Below, piece after piece: positions 8,142 through 26,390 of a DNA stretch of 48,066 nucleotides; within the stretch, counting starts at the first letter, position 1, and each line of letters begins with the position of its first letter. Source of the DNA: Acidimicrobiia bacterium. GTDB taxonomy: Bacteria; Actinomycetota; Acidimicrobiia; Acidimicrobiales; MedAcidi-G1. The DNA lies in assembly GCA_012961035.1 (NCBI GenBank), contig DUAC01000013.1, forward strand, positions 1 through 48,066, read 5' to 3'. The notes under the pieces are model-generated. The model made no database searches. It worked only from the letters and a program-made list of their open reading frames with translations, and was not told where the DNA came from. The translations under genes and the position numbers were made by a program.

Positions 8142-10589
8142 TCAGAGCCGGATCCGCAGGCTGTCCGGGTCGTAGAACGGGCGGTACGAGGCGGTCGCCG
8201 GTACCAGCACGCCGTTCACGTCGACCTCGAAGGTGCCCTCGAGCACCTGGGCCCTCGGTGTTCCGGGTTCACAGTCGACGTAGGACATGCCGAGAGCCGC
8301 TCCGACGGTGTGGCCGTACATCCCTGAGGTGATGCGTCCCACCAACTGGCCATCGCGGAGGACCGGTTCGTCGTGGTAGAGCAGTGGTCCGGGGTCGTCC
8401 AGGCGGAACTGCACGAGGCGTCGGGTCACGCCGGTGTCGCGCTGGGCCACCAGGGCATCGTGGCCGATGAAGCCACCGGGCTTGTCGAACGCCACGCCCC
8501 ACGAGAGCCCAGCCTCCAGCGGGGTGTCCTCGTCGCCGATGTCGTCACCCCAGTGGCGGTAGGCCTTCTCCATCCGCAGGGAGTTCATGGCGTGGTAGCC
8601 GGCAGCCACGAGGCCATTGGGGGCGCCAGATTCCCAGAGGGCGTCGAATGCACCGAGGGCGAACTCGGTGGGAACGTAGAGCTCCCAGCCCAGCTCGCCC
8701 ATGTAGGTGCGACGCACGGCGATGGCCCGTGCGTAGGCGAGGTCGATCTCCTGGAGGGTGCCGAACGGGAAGGCCTCGTTGGAGAGGTCGGCGTCGGTCA
8801 GCGGGGCCACGATGTCGCGTGCCCGGGGACCGAAGACTCCCAGGACCGCATAGCCGGACGTCACGTCGGTGACTGTCATGCGGGCGCCGTCCGGCGCGTG
8901 GCGGGCGATCCAGTCGGCGTCCTTGACCTGTGTGGAGAAGGCGGTCACCACCAGGAACCGCTCCTCGTCGAGGCGGTTCACGGTCAGGTCGGCCTCGATG
9001 CCACCGCGGTCGTTCAGCCAGGTGGTGTACACGGACGTTCCCGGCTCCACGTCGACGTCGGCCGACGAGATCCGGTTCAGCACAGCGCACGCATCCGGAC
9101 CCTGGACCAGCAGCTTGGCCAGCGACGTCTGGTCGAAGTAGGCGGCGCCCTCCCGGCAGGCCCGGTGCTCGGCGGCCGAGTGTTCGAACCAGTTCTGACG
9201 GCCGTAGGTGTATTCGTAGACCGGCTCGACGCCTTCCGGCGCGTACCAGTTGGGTCGCTCCCAGCCGCCGCCCTCGCCGAGGCAGGCACCCAGGGCCACC
9301 AGGCGGTCATGCACCGGTGAGCGCCGCACGCCCCGGGCCGTCTCGACCTGGCGGAACGGCCAGTGCATGGCGTACAGGAGGCCGAGGGCCTCGATGGAGC
9401 GGTCGTGCAGGTAGCGGCTGTTGGTCTGGAACGGCTGCATGCGACGAACGTCCACGTCCCACAGGTCCATGGGAGGTCGGCCGTTCACGATCCACTCGGC
9501 CAGCACCTTGCCGGCACCTCCGGCCGACTGCATGCCGATGGAGTTGAAGCCGGTGGCCACCCAGTGGTTGCGGAGTTCGGGCGTCTCGCCCAGCAGGTAG
9601 CGGTCGTCGGGGGTGAACGATTCGGGGCCGTTGAAGAACAGGCGGATGCCCACGTCTGCCAGGATCGGGATGCGCTCGCAGGCCGCCTCGTAGACTGGGG
9701 CCAGGTGTTCCCAGTCCTCGTCCAGTTGCAGGAACGGCTGGTCGGTGGGCAGCCCGCCCATGCCGTAGGGCTTGGCCACCGGCTCGAAGGCGCCGACCAT
9801 GAGGCGGCCGGCCTCGGTCTTCACGTAGATGCACCGGTCCTGGTCCCGAAGCACCGGGAGGCTGGCCGGCAGGCCCTCGATCGGTTCGGTCACGAGGTAG
9901 AAGTGCTCGCAGGCATGCAGGGGGATGTTCACGCCCACGTCGCGGCCCAGCTTGTGGGACCACATGCCGGCAGCGGTCACCACGTGCTCGGCATCCATCG
10001 GACCCTGGTCGGTCTCCACCCCGATGGCCCGACCGCCTTCGGTGCGGATTCGTTCCACCGACACACCCTCGAAGATCCGGGCGCCCCGTTCCCTGGCCAC
10101 CGCGGCCAGCGCCATGGTCGTGTCTACCGGCGAGGCCTGGCCGTCCCCGGGAATCCAGGCGCCGCCGACGATGCCCTCCGGGTTCAGCAGCGGCCAGCGG
10201 GAGACCAGGTCCTCGGCCGAGATGATGTCGACCTCCACGTCGAAGGCGCTGGCCATGCCGGCGCCCCGTACCAGCTCCTCCATGCGCTCCGGGTTGTCTG
10301 CCACGCTGAGCGATCCGACCTTCTGGAATCCCGTGGCATGACCCATGTCGCGTTCGAGGGACTCATAGAGTTCGGCCGAGTAGGCGGCCAGGCGGGTCAT
10401 GTTCTGGGTGGCCCGAAGGCACCCGACGAGGCCGGCGGCGTGCCAGGTGGTGCCGCTGGTCAACGTGTTGCGTTCCAGTAGGACGACGTCGGTCCAGCCC
10501 AGCTCTGTCAGGTGGTAGGCGATGCTGGCGCCCACGATGCCGCCACCGATTATGACGACCTGGGCGCTCTCGGGAATCTGCTTGGCCAT
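8142..10589 (-). CDS. FAD-dependent dehydrogenase fused to GcvT domain (dimethylglycine/sarcosine dehydrogenase-like)
   Basis: 815 residues with the two-part layout of dimethylglycine and sarcosine dehydrogenases: an N-terminal DAO-type FAD domain and a C-terminal aminomethyltransferase (GcvT) domain from about residue 430. The FAD-binding GGGIVGAS is at 15-22. TSGTTWHAAG places a histidine at 50 where family members bind FAD covalently. The expected reaction is oxidative demethylation of an N-methyl amine, with one-carbon transfer to tetrahydrofolate. ATG 10589 is the family start. It is divergent from an aminotransferase and shares a 188-base control region. The exact substrate (dimethylglycine, sarcosine or another) is open. 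Confidence 0.85.
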   Translation of the reverse strand: MAKQIPESAQVVIIGGGIVGASIAYHLTELGWTDVVLLERNTLTSGTTWHAAGLVGCLRATQNMTRLAAYSAELYESLERDMGHATGFQKVGSLSVADNPERMEELVRGAGMASAFDVEVDIISAEDLVSRWPLLNPEGIVGGAWIPGDGQASPVDTTMALAAVARERGARIFEGVSVERIRTEGGRAIGVETDQGPMDAEHVVTAAGMWSHKLGRDVGVNIPLHACEHFYLVTEPIEGLPASLPVLRDQDRCIYVKTEAGRLMVGAFEPVAKPYGMGGLPTDQPFLQLDEDWEHLAPVYEAACERIPILADVGIRLFFNGPESFTPDDRYLLGETPELRNHWVATGFNSIGMQSAGGAGKVLAEWIVNGRPPMDLWDVDVRRMQPFQTNSRYLHDRSIEALGLLYAMHWPFRQVETARGVRRSPVHDRLVALGACLGEGGGWERPNWYAPEGVEPVYEYTYGRQNWFEHSAAEHRACREGAAYFDQTSLAKLLVQGPDACAVLNRISSADVDVEPGTSVYTTWLNDRGGIEADLTVNRLDEERFLVVTAFSTQVKDADWIARHAPDGARMTVTDVTSGYAVLGVFGPRARDIVAPLTDADLSNEAFPFGTLQEIDLAYARAIAVRRTYMGELGWELYVPTEFALGAFDALWESGAPNGLVAAGYHAMNSLRMEKAYRHWGDDIGDEDTPLEAGLSWGVAFDKPGGFIGHDALVAQRDTGVTRRLVQFRLDDPGPLLYHDEPVLRDGQLVGRITSGMYGHTVGAALGMSYVDCEPGTPRAQVLEGTFEVDVNGVLVPATASYRPFYDPDSLRIRL

Positions 10590-10777
10590 GGAGGATGTTC
10601 CCCTGATCTGGTCGGCAGGGGCGCCGACCGGTCCGCCGTGCGGGCCTTGTCGTTAGACGCCTTCGTGATTAGGTTACAGACTCTAACTCCCGTGACGCCG
10701 GTCACCCGACGGTCGGTTCGCTGGAGTGTACGGCCCGGCACCACGGGAGGACCCGTGAACCACCACCCGGAGAAGAC
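10590..10777. promoter_or_regulatory. Divergent control region with GTTAGA/TCTAAC inverted repeat
   Basis: This region lies between the flavoprotein and aminotransferase genes. GTTAGA at 10652-10657 and TCTAAC at 10682-10687 form an inverted repeat with 24 bases between. TAGGTT inside it (10670-10675) could be a -10 box. The string CTCTAAC recurs at 13931-13937 in front of the TetR gene that ends this cluster, so the same regulator may bind both. The aminotransferase has a Shine-Dalgarno-like GGAG just before its ATG. Confidence 0.4.
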
Positions 10778-16121: not shown

Positions 16122-18965
16122 ATGGCATTGGACGCAGCACCGCCCGGAACGGGTGCCGAGGGCCTGTCGGCCTACCCGCCCGAGGAGACCTGGGACCACG
16201 TCGAGTCGCTGGACCCGGCGACATGGCCGAAACGTGTCCGGAGGGCCCACCGCCTGGTGCCCACCACGTGCTTCAACTGCGAGGCCAACTGCGGGCTACT
16301 GGCATGGGTCGACAAGGAGACCGGGCGGATCACCAAGTTCGAGGGAAACCCGGTGCACCCGGCCAGTCGGGGCCGCAACTGCGCCAAGGGCCCGGCCACC
16401 ATCAACCAGGTGGAGGACCCCGAGCGGATCCTGCACCCGATGAAGCGGGTGGGCGAGCGGGGCGAGGGCCTCTGGGAGCGAATCAGCTGGGACCAGGCCC
16501 TGGACGAGATAGGCACCCGCATAGGCAACGCCTTCCGGGAGGAACGCCACCACGAGGTCATGTACCACGTGGGTCGGATGGGCGACGACACCTACATGGA
16601 GCGGGTCCTCCACTCGTGGGGCATCGACGGCCACAACAGCCACACCAACATCTGCTCCAGCGGCGCCCGTGTGGGCTACGCCTCGTGGATGGGCTTCGAC
16701 CGTCCCTCGGCCGACTTCGCCAACGCCAAGGTCATCTTCCTCATCTCGGCACACCTGGAGGCCGGCCACTACTTCAACCCGCACGCCCAGCGGATCATCG
16801 AGGGCCAGCAGAACGGCGCCACGGTCATCTGCATCGATCCCAGGCTGTCCAACACGGCATCCAAGGCCGACCACTGGTTCTCCGCCTGGCCGGGCACCGA
16901 GGCGTTCCTGCTGCTGGCCATCGCCCGCCTGCTGATCCTGGACGGCACCTGGGATGCGGCCTTCTTCGAACGGTGGGTGAACTGGGAGACCTTCCTACGC
17001 GAGTCGCGGCCGGACCTGGAGCCGGTGTTCGCCAACGTGGGCCCTGCCCTGCTGGAGCTCTACGCCGAGTACACCCCGGAGGCCGCCGCCCGGATCTGCG
17101 GTATCGACGAGGACCGCCTGCGAATCGTCGCCCGCACCATCGGCGAAGGACTGGGAGGGTTCGCCTCCCACACCTGGAGGGCTTCGTCGGCTGGCAACGA
17201 GGGCGGCTGGATGGTGGCCCGCTGCCTGCAGTTCCTGACGGTGCTGACCGGGTCCGTGGGCACCGTGGGTGGCACCAACGCCAACGGCTGGAACAAGTTC
17301 ATGCCCGTCACCCCGATACATCCCGAGCCCCAGGGCCGCTGGAACGAGATGCAGTGGCCGATCGAGTACCCGCTCAGCCACCACGAGATGTCGTTCCTGC
17401 TACCGCACTTCCTGAAGGCCGGACGGGGCTATCTGGACACCTACTTCACCCGGGTCTACAACCCGCTCTGGACGAACCCGGACGGCTTCACGTGGATGGA
17501 GGTGCTGCGCGACACCGACAAGATCGGATGCCACGTGGCGCTCACCCCCACCTGGAACGAGTCGGCGTGGTTCGCCGACTACGTGCTGCCGATGGGAATC
17601 GCATCGGAGCGCCACGACGTCGCCAGCTTCGAGACCCACAACGGCCGCTGGATCGGCTTTCGCCAGCCCGTCGCCCGACGACACCGGGAGCTGGACGGCG
17701 AGACCATCCAGCGCACCTACGAGGCCAACCCGGGCGAGGTCTGGGAGGAGCAGGAGTTCTTCATCGACCTGTCGTGGCGGATCGACCCCGACGGTTCGTT
17801 GGGCATCCGCTCCCAGTTCGAGAGCGTCCAGAATCCGGGCACGCCGCTCACGCTCGACGAGTACTACTCGATGCTGTTCGAGGGTTCGGTTCCCGGCCTG
17901 CCCGAGGCGGCCGAGGCTCTCGGCATCACCCCGTTGGAGTACATGCGCCGGAAGGGCTCGTTCTCCCTGCCCGGTGACCAGACGCAGGTCTACGAACGCG
18001 ACGTGCCGGCAGCCGACCTGGAGGGGGCCGTCAGGGACGCCGGTGGTGTCTGGCGCCAGCCCGGTACGGCCGGTTCACACGCTTCGCTGGACGAGATCAG
18101 GGGCCACATGCCTTTCATCGGCGACGGCTCGCCGGCCGTGGACATCGATGGTGAGCCGAAGCTCGGGTTTCCGACGCCGTCGCGGAAGCTGGAGTTCTTC
18201 TCCGAGACGATCCGCGACTGGGGCTGGCCCGAGTACTCCATGCCGACGTTCATCAGGAGCCAGGTGCACTGGGAGGACCTGGACATGTCGGCCGGCGAGC
18301 GGATCCTGGTACCCACCTTCCGCATCCCGACGTTGATCCACACCCGGTCGTCCAACAGCCAGTGGCTGAACGAGATCAGCCACCGCCACCCGCTCTGGCT
18401 GCATCCCGGTGATGCCGAGGAGCTGGGCATCGAGGAGAACGGCCTGGTCAGGATCACCACCCGCATCGGCCACTTCGTGATCCAGGCGTGGCGCACGGAG
18501 GGCATCCGGCCCGGCGTGGTTGCGGCCAGCCATCACATGGGGCGGTGGCGCCTGGAGGACGACAAGGCCCGGTCGTGGGGGGCCGGAAAGGCCTCGGTCG
18601 AACAGGACGGGGACGGCCGGTGGAAGCTCCAGCGGGAGCAGGGCGTGGAGGCCTACGAGAGCGAGGATCCGGATACCGGGTTGATCTGGTGGACCGACAC
18701 CGGGGTGCACCAGAACCTCACCTTCCCCGTGCAGCCCGATCCGGTCAGCGGCATGCACTGCTGGTTGCAGCGGGTGACGGTGTCGCCGGCCGAGCCCGGT
18801 GACGCATACGGCGACGTGGTGGTCGACACCGGGGCATCGCACCGGATCTTCGAGGAGTGGCTGGCCAAGGCCCGGCCGGGTCCCGGCCCTGACGGCCTAC
18901 GTCGCCCCCTCTGGTTCGCCCGTCCGGTGAAGCCGAAGGCGACGGCCTACCGCTACGACGCCTGA
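16122..18965 (+). CDS. Molybdopterin oxidoreductase catalytic subunit (Psr/Phs/SoeA-like)
   Basis: 947 residues of the complex iron-sulfur molybdoenzyme family. A [4Fe-4S] site is formed by Cys50, 53, 57 and 87 (CFNCEANC plus NCAKG). SHTNICSSGAR places a probable molybdenum-ligating cysteine at 178, as in polysulfide/thiosulfate reductases and SoeA. The C-terminal molydopterin-binding domain starts near residue 725. There is no twin-arginine signal, so it should be cytoplasmic, which fits sulfite dehydrogenase SoeABC better than periplasmic reductases. Substrate assignment (sulfite, polysulfide, thiosulfate, an arsenic species) is inference only. It forms a two-gene operon with the fused iron-sulfur/anchor protein. 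Confidence 0.87.
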   Translation: MALDAAPPGTGAEGLSAYPPEETWDHVESLDPATWPKRVRRAHRLVPTTCFNCEANCGLLAWVDKETGRITKFEGNPVHPASRGRNCAKGPATINQVEDPERILHPMKRVGERGEGLWERISWDQALDEIGTRIGNAFREERHHEVMYHVGRMGDDTYMERVLHSWGIDGHNSHTNICSSGARVGYASWMGFDRPSADFANAKVIFLISAHLEAGHYFNPHAQRIIEGQQNGATVICIDPRLSNTASKADHWFSAWPGTEAFLLLAIARLLILDGTWDAAFFERWVNWETFLRESRPDLEPVFANVGPALLELYAEYTPEAAARICGIDEDRLRIVARTIGEGLGGFASHTWRASSAGNEGGWMVARCLQFLTVLTGSVGTVGGTNANGWNKFMPVTPIHPEPQGRWNEMQWPIEYPLSHHEMSFLLPHFLKAGRGYLDTYFTRVYNPLWTNPDGFTWMEVLRDTDKIGCHVALTPTWNESAWFADYVLPMGIASERHDVASFETHNGRWIGFRQPVARRHRELDGETIQRTYEANPGEVWEEQEFFIDLSWRIDPDGSLGIRSQFESVQNPGTPLTLDEYYSMLFEGSVPGLPEAAEALGITPLEYMRRKGSFSLPGDQTQVYERDVPAADLEGAVRDAGGVWRQPGTAGSHASLDEIRGHMPFIGDGSPAVDIDGEPKLGFPTPSRKLEFFSETIRDWGWPEYSMPTFIRSQVHWEDLDMSAGERILVPTFRIPTLIHTRSSNSQWLNEISHRHPLWLHPGDAEELGIEENGLVRITTRIGHFVIQAWRTEGIRPGVVAASHHMGRWRLEDDKARSWGAGKASVEQDGDGRWKLQREQGVEAYESEDPDTGLIWWTDTGVHQNLTFPVQPDPVSGMHCWLQRVTVSPAEPGDAYGDVVVDTGASHRIFEEWLAKARPGPGPDGLRRPLWFARPVKPKATAYRYDA

Positions 18966-23325: not shown

Positions 23326-24156
23326 TCAGCTGGCGTTAGACCCGTCTAGTGGCGTGGTCAGGCCCTCGTCGTTGGCCGGTCGGCTCCGGGACAGGAACGC
23401 CCCTGCGTCGGCCAGCACGAGTTGTCCGGTGATGCAGCGGGCCAGGTCGCTGGTCAGGAACACCGCCAGGCGTGCCAGCTCGTCGTGTTCGACCATGCGT
23501 CGCAGGGGCGTGGCTTCGACGATCGCCGCCATGCGCTCCTCCGTGAACGCAGCCGCCACCGTCTCGGTCATCGTCGTTCCCGGAGCCATGGCGTTGACCC
23601 GGATGCCGGCCGGTCCCAGCTCCACGGCCATGGATGTGACCAGGTGGTTCACCGCCGCCTTGGCCGCTGCGTAGGCAGCGTTGTACGGCGACGGTCGGGT
23701 CGTCTCACCGGAGGTCACGAACAGGATCGAACCGCCTCCCGTCCCGACCATCAGCTCGGCTTCGGCCCGACCACAGAGGGCGGCCACAACGAGGTTCTGG
23801 TCGATGATGTCGTGCCAGTCGTCGTACCGGTACCGGACGAAGGGTCGCGGCTGCCGCCCGGGCGGCAGCATCCCGACATTGTTGACGGCGATGTCCAGGC
23901 CACCCAGGCGGTCGGCCACGGTGGCCACCATGGCGTCCACGGCGGTCTCGTCCCGGCAGTCGGCGACCACGGCGATAGCCGTGGATCCATCGTCGGTGAT
24001 CTCCGCCGCCACAGCCTCGGCCCGGTCGGGCCTGAGGTCGTTGACGGCCACCGACGCGCCGGCACGGGCCAGCCAACGGGCGATCTCCCGGCCGATGCCG
24101 GCGCCCGCGCCGGTCACCAGTGCGGTGCGGCCCGCGTGGTCGATCGAGATGCTCAT
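23326..24156 (-). CDS. Short-chain dehydrogenase/reductase, third gene of the selenoprotein operon
   Basis: 276 residues. Cofactor site TGAGAGIG (15-22), NNVG near 92-95 and catalytic Ser149, Tyr162 and Lys166 (YAAAK). NDLRPD after strand 2 suggests NAD(H). The start lies seven bases after the stop of the selenoprotein gene, so it is probably co-transcribed. It is not especially similar to the SDR at 22.4 kb. A role in reducing or oxidising a product of the selenoprotein system is inferred from position only. Confidence 0.87.
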   Translation of the reverse strand: MSISIDHAGRTALVTGAGAGIGREIARWLARAGASVAVNDLRPDRAEAVAAEITDDGSTAIAVVADCRDETAVDAMVATVADRLGGLDIAVNNVGMLPPGRQPRPFVRYRYDDWHDIIDQNLVVAALCGRAEAELMVGTGGGSILFVTSGETTRPSPYNAAYAAAKAAVNHLVTSMAVELGPAGIRVNAMAPGTTMTETVAAAFTEERMAAIVEATPLRRMVEHDELARLAVFLTSDLARCITGQLVLADAGAFLSRSRPANDEGLTTPLDGSNAS

Positions 24157-24163
24157 CTTTCGG

Positions 24164-24688
24164 TCATCCGGCCATGCCGGTCAGCAGGCCCAGCACCTCG
24201 TCGACCACAGCGTCTGCCCGATCCAGGATCGCTGCCTCGGAGACCCCACCGATCGGGTGTTCCACCGAGACGATCCGGAGGCCCGCCAGGCCCAGGTCGG
24301 CGGCGGTCTGGTCGGCGAGGAGGCGGAGTTCTCCGGTGGCCACCAGCACGGTGGGGATGCCGGCACCTTCCAGCTTCACGGTGTCGTGGACACTCCACGA
24401 CGTGCAGCTCCCTCAATCAGCAGTGCCGGTGAGGACCAGCTCCACCTCCTCCACGAGTCGACCGAGTACCTGGTCCTCGCATGGGATGGCGGCGTTCTTG
24501 GTCTGGACGAGGGTCACCTCGGCGCCCGTGCGGCCGGCAAGCCGCTCGGCCAGTCGTGCCAGGAGGAGGCCGGCGTTGGGCTTGCGGTTGTCGAGGATGC
24601 CGATCCGCCTGCCGGCCAGCACAGCGGGGGTGGGAGCCAGGCTGGCAGGCGGGGTGCTCGAGGCGCCGGTGGGTGGGTGTATCTGCAC
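24164..24688 (-). CDS. UGSC-family selenoprotein (in-frame TGA read as selenocysteine)
   Basis: Read through TGA at 24415-24413, this frame gives 174 residues with Sec at 92 in the motif ADUGSCTSWS. Both halves look coding and fit one protein: GRRIGILDNRKPNAG and VLTGTAD before the TGA, and LEGAGIPTVLVATGEL after it. GTG 24688 follows AGGAG (TAGGAGCACCC) and lies eight bases after the upstream gene stop. VLTxT..UGSCT followed by GAGIPTV resembles the UGTCT active-site region of glycine/betaine reductase selenoprotein B (GrdB). I recall a family called UGSC (seleno)protein of unknown function. A SECIS-like hairpin directly follows the TGA. Conventional gene calling would split or truncate this gene. 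The tRNA-Sec and SelB genes are not in the window. Confidence 0.85.
24372..24415 (-). promoter_or_regulatory. Bacterial SECIS-like element
   Basis: Eleven bases after the TGA (24415-24413) comes a perfect 8-bp stem, GTCGTGGA (24401-24394) with TCCACGAC (24390-24383), around a GTG loop. Below it CAC (24404-24402) can pair with GTG (24379-24377) and AGCT (24409-24406) with AGCT (24375-24372), with bulges. The apical loop begins about 20 bases after the TGA, inside the range known for bacterial SECIS elements, and has the G-containing loop they need. Confidence 0.75.
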
Positions 24689-24696
24689 GGGTGCTC

Positions 24697-25749
24697 CTAG
24701 GGCTCGATGGGGATGGTGACGCTCCGGGTCATTCCCCAACTGGGTATGACGGAACTGTGCCTGCCGGCGCCGCCCACCACCATGATCCGGATGTTGTCGG
24801 GGTGTCCGGTCATCGGGGCGGCGTCTCCATCCTGCAGGGCCTGCATCCAGGGAGCCCAGGCCCGATGTCCGAAGGCCTGCTTCAGCTCGCCGACGGGCAG
24901 TCGGGCCCGTTGGAAGAGGTAGGACGCCACGTCGCCCCGGGACCATCCGGCGTCGGCGCAGGTGGCGGCGTGTTCCGGGCAGAGCGCCACCAGGTACTCG
25001 CCCTGGCTGATGCAGGCGTTGTTCTGGGCGGTGGTGGCCATTGCCGAGGCCACCTTGTCGAGGATCCCGGTGGGGTCGGAGGATTCCATGTCGTGCACGT
25101 TGTGTGGTGCTTCGCCGCAGTGGATGGTCACCGCCGATGGGGCGTCCACCCCGACCGAGGCCGCGTAGCCGGTCCAGGGTGAGGCCTCCAGGTTCTCGGC
25201 GACGCAGAAGCCGTACTTGGCGGGCCCACCCTGGGTGGAGGCGTCACCGTCACCCGGAGTGGCGCCGGCAACGTGCAGGAGGATGAGGCGGAGGGCTCGG
25301 CCGGTGGTGGCATTGGCCCGACTCCCCGGGCCGAACGCTCCGAGGCCGCCGTGGTAGCCGGCACTACGGACCACCTCGCCGTGGACGACGAGGAGGGGGG
25401 CGACGCAGTGCGTGGTGGCGTTGACCCCCCGCAGGTTCAGGTCGGTATGGGCGAGGGCCCGCACGGCCGACACCAGGACCGGGAGGTGGTCGGGTAGGCA
25501 GCCGGCCATCACGGCGTTCACGGCGATGGCCAGGCGGGTTGCCTGGCCGAACCGCGGTGGGAGGGTGGCCACGACCTCCTCGGGGTCGCGGCCACTGCAG
25601 CCGGCCAGCATCGCTTCCACCCGCTCGGGAGTGGGGGCGACCACCGGCAGGCCGTCTCCCCAGCCGAGGGAGGCCAGGACCTCTATCAGGTCGGCGTCGT
25701 CGTCCACCTCGAGGAGGTCGGTGGGGGAACCTGCCGTGTCTACAGTCAT
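24697..25749 (-). CDS. Conserved protein of unknown function, partner of the UGSC selenoprotein
   Basis: 350 residues, start ATG 25749. I recognise the conserved blocks, GWGDGLPVVAPTPERVEAML near residue 30, AIAVNAVMAGCLPDHLPV near 75 and NNACISQGEYLVALCPEHA near 245, as a widespread family without an established function. No signal peptide or membrane segment is visible. Several cysteines (for example in MAGC, THC, GFC, HCG, NACIS) could take part in thiol chemistry or metal binding. It is eight bases upstream of the selenoprotein start, so the two are surely co-translated and may form one enzyme, by analogy with two-protein selenoenzyme reductases; that is inference. Confidence 0.8.
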   Translation of the reverse strand: MTVDTAGSPTDLLEVDDDADLIEVLASLGWGDGLPVVAPTPERVEAMLAGCSGRDPEEVVATLPPRFGQATRLAIAVNAVMAGCLPDHLPVLVSAVRALAHTDLNLRGVNATTHCVAPLLVVHGEVVRSAGYHGGLGAFGPGSRANATTGRALRLILLHVAGATPGDGDASTQGGPAKYGFCVAENLEASPWTGYAASVGVDAPSAVTIHCGEAPHNVHDMESSDPTGILDKVASAMATTAQNNACISQGEYLVALCPEHAATCADAGWSRGDVASYLFQRARLPVGELKQAFGHRAWAPWMQALQDGDAAPMTGHPDNIRIMVVGGAGRHSSVIPSWGMTRSVTIPIEP

Positions 25750-25805: not shown

Positions 25806-26390
25806 ATGGCGGCACGACGGGGGGTGACCAGGGACCGGGTGGCCCACGCCGCCCTGGAGGTCCTGGACGAGGTCGGGAACATCGACGGTGTACGGCCGTC
25901 GATGGTGGCTGCCCGGCTGGGTATCCGGTCGCAGTCGCTCTACGCCCATGTCGACGGCGTGGACGGGCTGCGTCGACTGCTGGCCCTCCGGTCACTTGCC
26001 GACCTGGCCGACACCGTGACCGGGGTCGCCGTCGGGCGGTCGGGTCTCGACGCCGTCGACGCCATTGTCCGGGCGCACCTGGGCTTCGCCATGGCATGGC
26101 CGGGACGCTTCAGTGCCGCCATCCACCCGCCGGGGGAGGATTCCGACCTCCTGGCAGCGGTGGAGCGCGTCGGCAGCCCACTCCAGACGGTCCTGGAGCT
26201 GCTGGGCCTGGACGCCGACGAGAGGGTCCACTGGACGCGCCTGCAGCTCTCCCTGGTCTGGGGCTTCGCCACCCTCTGGCGCGATGGGCGCCTCACCCTG
26301 GCACCACCCCCGGAGTCGACGATCGACCACCTGGTGGCTGCCCTCCTGGTCCGGTTGGAGACCAGCCCGGCAGCGGAGGCCTCGAGATGA
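25806..26390 (+). CDS. TetR-family regulator
   Basis: 194 residues. Helix-turn-helix VRPSMVAARLGIRSQSLYAHVDG near residues 29-51, then a TetR_C_33-like helical domain (LRSLADLADTVTGVAV, RLQLSLVWGFATLW). Strong ribosome-binding site GGAGGAG. It overlaps the next gene by ATGA and is divergent from the selenoprotein operon, so it probably controls both directions. Confidence 0.85.
   Translation: MAARRGVTRDRVAHAALEVLDEVGNIDGVRPSMVAARLGIRSQSLYAHVDGVDGLRRLLALRSLADLADTVTGVAVGRSGLDAVDAIVRAHLGFAMAWPGRFSAAIHPPGEDSDLLAAVERVGSPLQTVLELLGLDADERVHWTRLQLSLVWGFATLWRDGRLTLAPPPESTIDHLVAALLVRLETSPAAEASR

Follow-up and report, generated by a model that had tools for sequence, protein, structure and literature searches.

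The window, i.e. the whole stretch of 48,066 nucleotides analysed here (contig DUAC01000013.1 of the Acidimicrobiia bacterium assembly GCA_012961035.1), harbored a UGSC family selenoprotein gene in which an in-frame TGA almost certainly encodes selenocysteine (Sec) at residue 92, as judged from sequence comparison. We propose that this selenoprotein and the protein encoded just upstream form a thioredoxin-dependent reductase acting like GrdB and PrdB, the Sec subunits (PF07355) of glycine/betaine/sarcosine reductases and D-proline reductase, with a probability of about 0.55 for the statement as a whole.

Published passages on the family presented it in 2008 as an abundant aquatic selenoprotein, with 255 proteins in the GOS set and a fusion to an unnamed domain, Unknown_1 (PMC2398784), and later gave its share as 8.2% of selenoprotein genes (PMC9402790), figures that rank UGSC with the most abundant selenoproteins of marine and fresh water metagenomes. 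A 2026 review still counted such proteins as largely uncharacterised in function (PMC13188914), in agreement with an earlier note on this DNA, which had regarded it as not established. The partner protein, the thioredoxin links and the relation to GrdB/PrdB were not stated in the published passages on UGSC consulted here; the profile relation, the near-constant partner and the thioredoxin link added here lead to a testable functional proposal. Since Cys forms occur in cultured haloarchaea, Arthrobacter and Roseovarius, with Halalkalicoccus locus L151 and Arthrobacter locus L149 as examples, this function could be tested without selenocysteine expression.

Gene structure and family membership

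The UGSC gene (24164..24688, minus strand) began with a GTG start codon (24688-24686) and encoded 174 residues by readthrough of an internal TGA, the next stop being the TGA at 24166-24164. The internal TGA (24415-24413) was codon 92, at the first position of the motif U92-G-S-C95 (residues 92-95). The readthrough product matched Pfam PF24696 over residues 3-170 (5.2e-46, 157.4 bits for a cut-off of 25) and NCBIfam NF041046 (133.7 bits for a cut-off of 125), so that the two halves do read as one protein, as the earlier note had proposed. The first position of [UC]GSC was an invariant Sec/Cys column in an alignment of 16 sequences. With its full-length match, its UGSC motif and its Sec at the same codon, the window gene differs in nothing from the catalogued family; it is an ordinary, full-length member, and the family itself is not new.

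An AGGAG ribosome-binding site (24694..24698, minus strand) preceded the gene and overlapped the stop codon of its upstream neighbour, which makes translational coupling of these genes probable. This upstream gene (24697..25749, minus strand, start codon inferred) encoded a conserved partner protein of about 350 residues. On the downstream side, an SDR-type dehydrogenase gene (23326..24156, minus strand; PF13561, 1.5e-56), kept in close relatives, adjoined UGSC in most Acidimicrobiia loci. The AGGAG site, the two co-directional flanking genes and all coordinates first given for the features of the UGSC gene thus proved correct. A divergent TetR-type regulator (25806..26390, plus strand; PF13305, 1.3e-12), whose position was kept in loci L020-L023 and L030, is a candidate regulator of the UGSC operon. 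Apparent conserved families arising from opposite-strand open reading frames overlapping UGSC were false and were disregarded.

Selenocysteine at the internal TGA

The genome containing the window (2.37 Mb, a 212-contig draft, 94% complete), whose nearest public relatives were Acidimicrobiia assemblies, encoded the full Sec machinery: SelA, SelB and SelD, each above its cut-off, and a tRNA-Sec (67.5 bits for a cut-off of 47) also called by ARAGORN. The SelD gene itself carried an in-frame TGA, and a second UGSC gene in the same genome was also of the TGA form. A TGA was found at the UGSC codon in 17 of 17 loci retrieved by similarity from public genomes. In the phylum, UGSC matches were present in 29 of 396 genomes, most of these matches containing a single TGA and some a Cys, so that homologues carrying Sec or Cys at position 92, which the earlier note had suggested seeking along with the machinery, were indeed found.

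The TGA form was associated with selA: among 49 of these genomes, chosen to include 29 with and 20 without UGSC, 22 with TGA-form UGSC had selA and 1 did not, against 7 and 19 for the rest (Fisher P 9e-7, kinship being ignored). In each half of the gene, most substitutions relative to related sequences were at third codon positions, the closest pair excepted, and both halves were kept at the protein level. The draft state of the assembly leaves some room for the TGA being an assembly error or an ordinary stop, with the halves a pseudogene or two proteins, but such a reading is very improbable given the conservation of the TGA in 17 loci and in most matches of the phylum, the protein-level conservation on both of its sides and the complete machinery. 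The TGA-form homologues, the Sec machinery, the family match and compensatory changes in the adjacent hairpin (see below) make the selenoprotein call essentially settled.

Several individual cases were recorded. One TGA-form UGSC gene (G036:C10:205469-205966) lay in a genome (94% complete) in which selA was not detected; the assembly may be incomplete or contaminated. Genome G102 carried two UGSC genes (L083 and L105), both of the Cys form, and no selA, consistent with a loss of Sec use. On a plasmid of the cultured Paracoccus ferrooxidans (L156:4396-4965), the annotation of a Sec-form UGSC gene breaks at the TGA into two separate hypothetical proteins, and selB lies at a distance of about 4 kb.

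A conserved hairpin after the selenocysteine codon

A SECIS-type hairpin (24383..24401, minus strand) followed the TGA after 11 bases (GGGAGCTGCAC) and consisted of a perfect 8-bp stem, GTCGTGGA-GTG-TCCACGAC, as first described. With the protein sequence held fixed, a perfect 8/8 stem would be expected in 1.3% of synonymous recodings. All 8 pairs were kept in 27 of 39 distinct Sec sequences and at least 7 in 33 of 39, while the stem was broken in five Cys genes (1-5 of 8 pairs). Across 24 distinct sequences, 93.2% of the hairpin cells were paired and covariation reached 0.215 against 0.113 in shuffles, none of 500 shuffles being as high; these shuffles ignore relatedness, and a slid-partner control was also far below. 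At the column pair 21/27, a C-G pair changed to G-C through the replacement of Trp98 (TGG) by Cys98 (TGC) together with a silent GTC/GTG change in Val100. These results show the hairpin just after the UGA to be under selection. An Rfam search of the region for a known RNA family gave chance matches only, this SECIS being represented by no family there. The claim of a UGSC selenoprotein with an adjacent SECIS hairpin is supported by the family match and the Sec machinery as well as by the homologues and the covariation.

Probable distant relation to GrdB and PrdB

Profile comparison supported a distant homology between UGSC and the Sec domain of GrdB/PrdB. With hhalign, UGSC aligned to the C-terminal domains of GrdB/PrdB with probabilities of 82-91% and scores of 41-46, Sec on Sec, values that are below the usual 95% threshold and stem mainly from the half around and after Sec. 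Among 23 unrelated clusters of open reading frames from the same loci, the best score was 32 (24%), for a Rossmann-fold dehydrogenase; one more cluster, at 100%, was UGSC itself. Column-shuffled profiles scored at most 13, and the unshuffled UGSC profile of that run scored 26 against GrdB and 40 against PrdB-like proteins, so the scores depend on the settings. The positive control, GrdB against PrdB-like proteins, reached 99.7%. The likeness of UGSC to a GrdB-type active site, noted at first from the motif, probably reflects distant homology.

The domains were collinear, with a strand, Sec, a helix, an E..GIPT motif, a strand and a P.G motif in common, as well as U-G-S/T at the Sec site, and thioredoxin genes occurred in some clusters of both. 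Unlike GrdB/PrdB, UGSC lacked the first GrdB domain, a GrdE-type partner and any PF07355 match (PF24696 was its sole Pfam match at E up to 10); it was found in bacteria annotated as aerobes, and its Cys form in haloarchaea.

The earlier note had stated that aerobic-type actinobacteria are not known for glycine-reductase-like chemistry. Genes of this type nevertheless occur in other Actinomycetota, which encode GrdB with GrdE beside it, while the search of the window genome yielded no GrdE. In other Actinomycetota, GrdB-type proteins ran past the Pfam model into, e.g., TST-U-GTGTRCGSTLAKELERAGIPTALL, and PrdB-like proteins showed U-PLC at the Sec site. The GrdB-type proteins of the actinomycetotal loci L107-L119 displayed UGTGT at the Sec site, without a Cys three residues on, and most of their genes adjoined GrdE. 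The window genome also contained two partial PF07355 matches (G000:C56:20488-20889 and G000:C96:22499-22657), which, like those of PrdB-like proteins, span the C-terminal part and may represent further selenoproteins.

The AlphaFold model of UGSC (pLDDT 91) alternated strands and helices in a Rossmann-like arrangement, U92 sitting between strand 84-90 and helix 93-108. Its PDB neighbours were receiver- and flavodoxin-like domains. The fold search gave many Rossmann-like matches, the highest Z being 10.9 over 127 residues at an rmsd of 3.4, and was not specific; neither GrdB/PrdB nor thioredoxins were among the fold-search matches listed. A PDB sequence search returned no solved relative of UGSC or of its partner. 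The predicted model makes the thioredoxin fold that was assumed in 2008 less likely, within the limits of this unspecific fold search.

Alternatively, UGSC could be a thiol-disulfide oxidoreductase of general function that resembles thioredoxin or peroxiredoxin, a suggestion made in 2008, with U92/C95 as a UxxC redox pair working on protein disulfides or peroxides. The UxxC spacing would suit such an enzyme, and thioredoxin or TrxB neighbours fit any thiol redox enzyme. We consider it unlikely, however, in view of the Rossmann-like model with its receiver- and flavodoxin-like neighbours, the profile similarity to GrdB/PrdB, and a large, near-constant partner that would be unexpected for a free-standing disulfide reductase.

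A near-constant upstream partner

The partner protein was encoded in 51 of 58 loci examined; of the 7 loci without it, 3 ended near the UGSC gene and 2 held no real UGSC, their hits being sub-threshold. In loci L091, L094, L095, L098 and L099, UGSC followed by the partner domain read as one chain, and these chains may be the Unknown_1 fusion of 2008. Residues conserved in the partner included C99, K193 and E200 (numbering of alignment A2). The pair also occurred on plasmids of haloarchaea, Betaproteobacteria, Alphaproteobacteria and Arthrobacter.

The partner family had no Pfam or NCBIfam match, a scan of 28 relatives giving scattered weak hits only. Its profile showed no similarity to those of UGSC, GrdB and GrdE, the probability for GrdE being 0.25% (GrdE being the pyruvoyl-type subunit covered by the comparison), and the window genome had no PF09338 match for the pyruvoyl partner GrdE. 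In the fold comparison of the partner, class I fumarate hydratases ranked first but superposed poorly (TM about 0.25), and the VIA Z was no higher than 6.3 over about 90 residues; no fold was assigned. A GcvT-like gene lay between the partner and UGSC genes in L025, L027, L029 and L034, and elsewhere in the window (8145-10652) an FAD oxidoreductase was fused to a GcvT domain, of the sarcosine/dimethylglycine dehydrogenase type.

Thioredoxin links and proposed mechanism

Glycine reductase receives its electrons from thioredoxin (PMC10298544), and thioredoxin genes accompanied UGSC in several clusters. The gene order in Arthrobacter was trxB-trxA-partner-UGSC, trxB was found in the clusters of Variovorax and Roseovarius, and weaker TrxB-like genes in others; beside the window's own UGSC copy no thioredoxin gene was seen. 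In about 11 loci of a second subtype, a domain with CxxC and VPT motifs was fused in frame to the N-terminus of the partner, and in the second UGSC copy of the window genome this domain was a separate gene. By our reading of its motifs the domain would be thioredoxin-like; Pfam gave a weak TraF match only.

In the proposed mechanism, the hairpin after the UGA would direct SelB and tRNA-Sec to insert Sec at residue 92, a step that is strongly supported. UGSC would be a Rossmann-like domain with Sec at a helix start, distantly homologous to the GrdB/PrdB Sec domain, as the profile and model data support. A small substrate, which is probably a carboxylic acid, would be bound and activated by the partner and then attacked by the Sec selenolate; a carbon-heteroatom bond would be reductively cleaved, and the resulting U92/C95 selenenylsulfide would be reduced by thioredoxin. 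With a partner unlike GrdE, neither a pyruvoyl nor a Schiff-base step is supported, and the lack of a PF09338 match in the window genome likewise gives no ground for a pyruvoyl group. More tentatively, and with odds somewhat below even, UGSC and its partner could represent an unrecognised class of thioredoxin-dependent reductases, which kept the GrdB/PrdB Sec domain, swapped the pyruvoyl subunit for another activating protein, and acts outside amino-acid-fermenting anaerobes.

As a special case of the proposed reductase, the pair could act reductively on a carbon-halogen or carbon-sulfur bond rather than on an amine. The precedent is FarB/FarE of Cloacibacillus, related to GrdB/GrdE and proposed to cleave the C-F bond of fluoroacetate (PMC10838667), a GrdB-type reductive cleavage of a small carboxylate; FarB/FarE are nevertheless true GrdB/GrdE homologues, whereas UGSC pairs with a different protein. 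The CoA transferases, PEP-mutase-type lyases, tricarboxylate/TRAP transporters and ComA-type sulfolactate synthase (in the Arthrobacter cluster) found in UGSC clusters would fit such a substrate. No dehalogenase or sulfonate gene was constant across loci, however, and the sulfolactate synthase annotation was limited to two clusters, which leaves this narrower reading doubtful. For the reductase in general, the gene neighbourhood was tried as a guide to the substrate and set aside, as neighbouring enzymes vary too widely for the substrate to be read from context. Within the window itself, a large molybdopterin oxidoreductase with an Fe4S4 domain was encoded at 16122-18965, scoring far under every NCBIfam equivalog cut-off.
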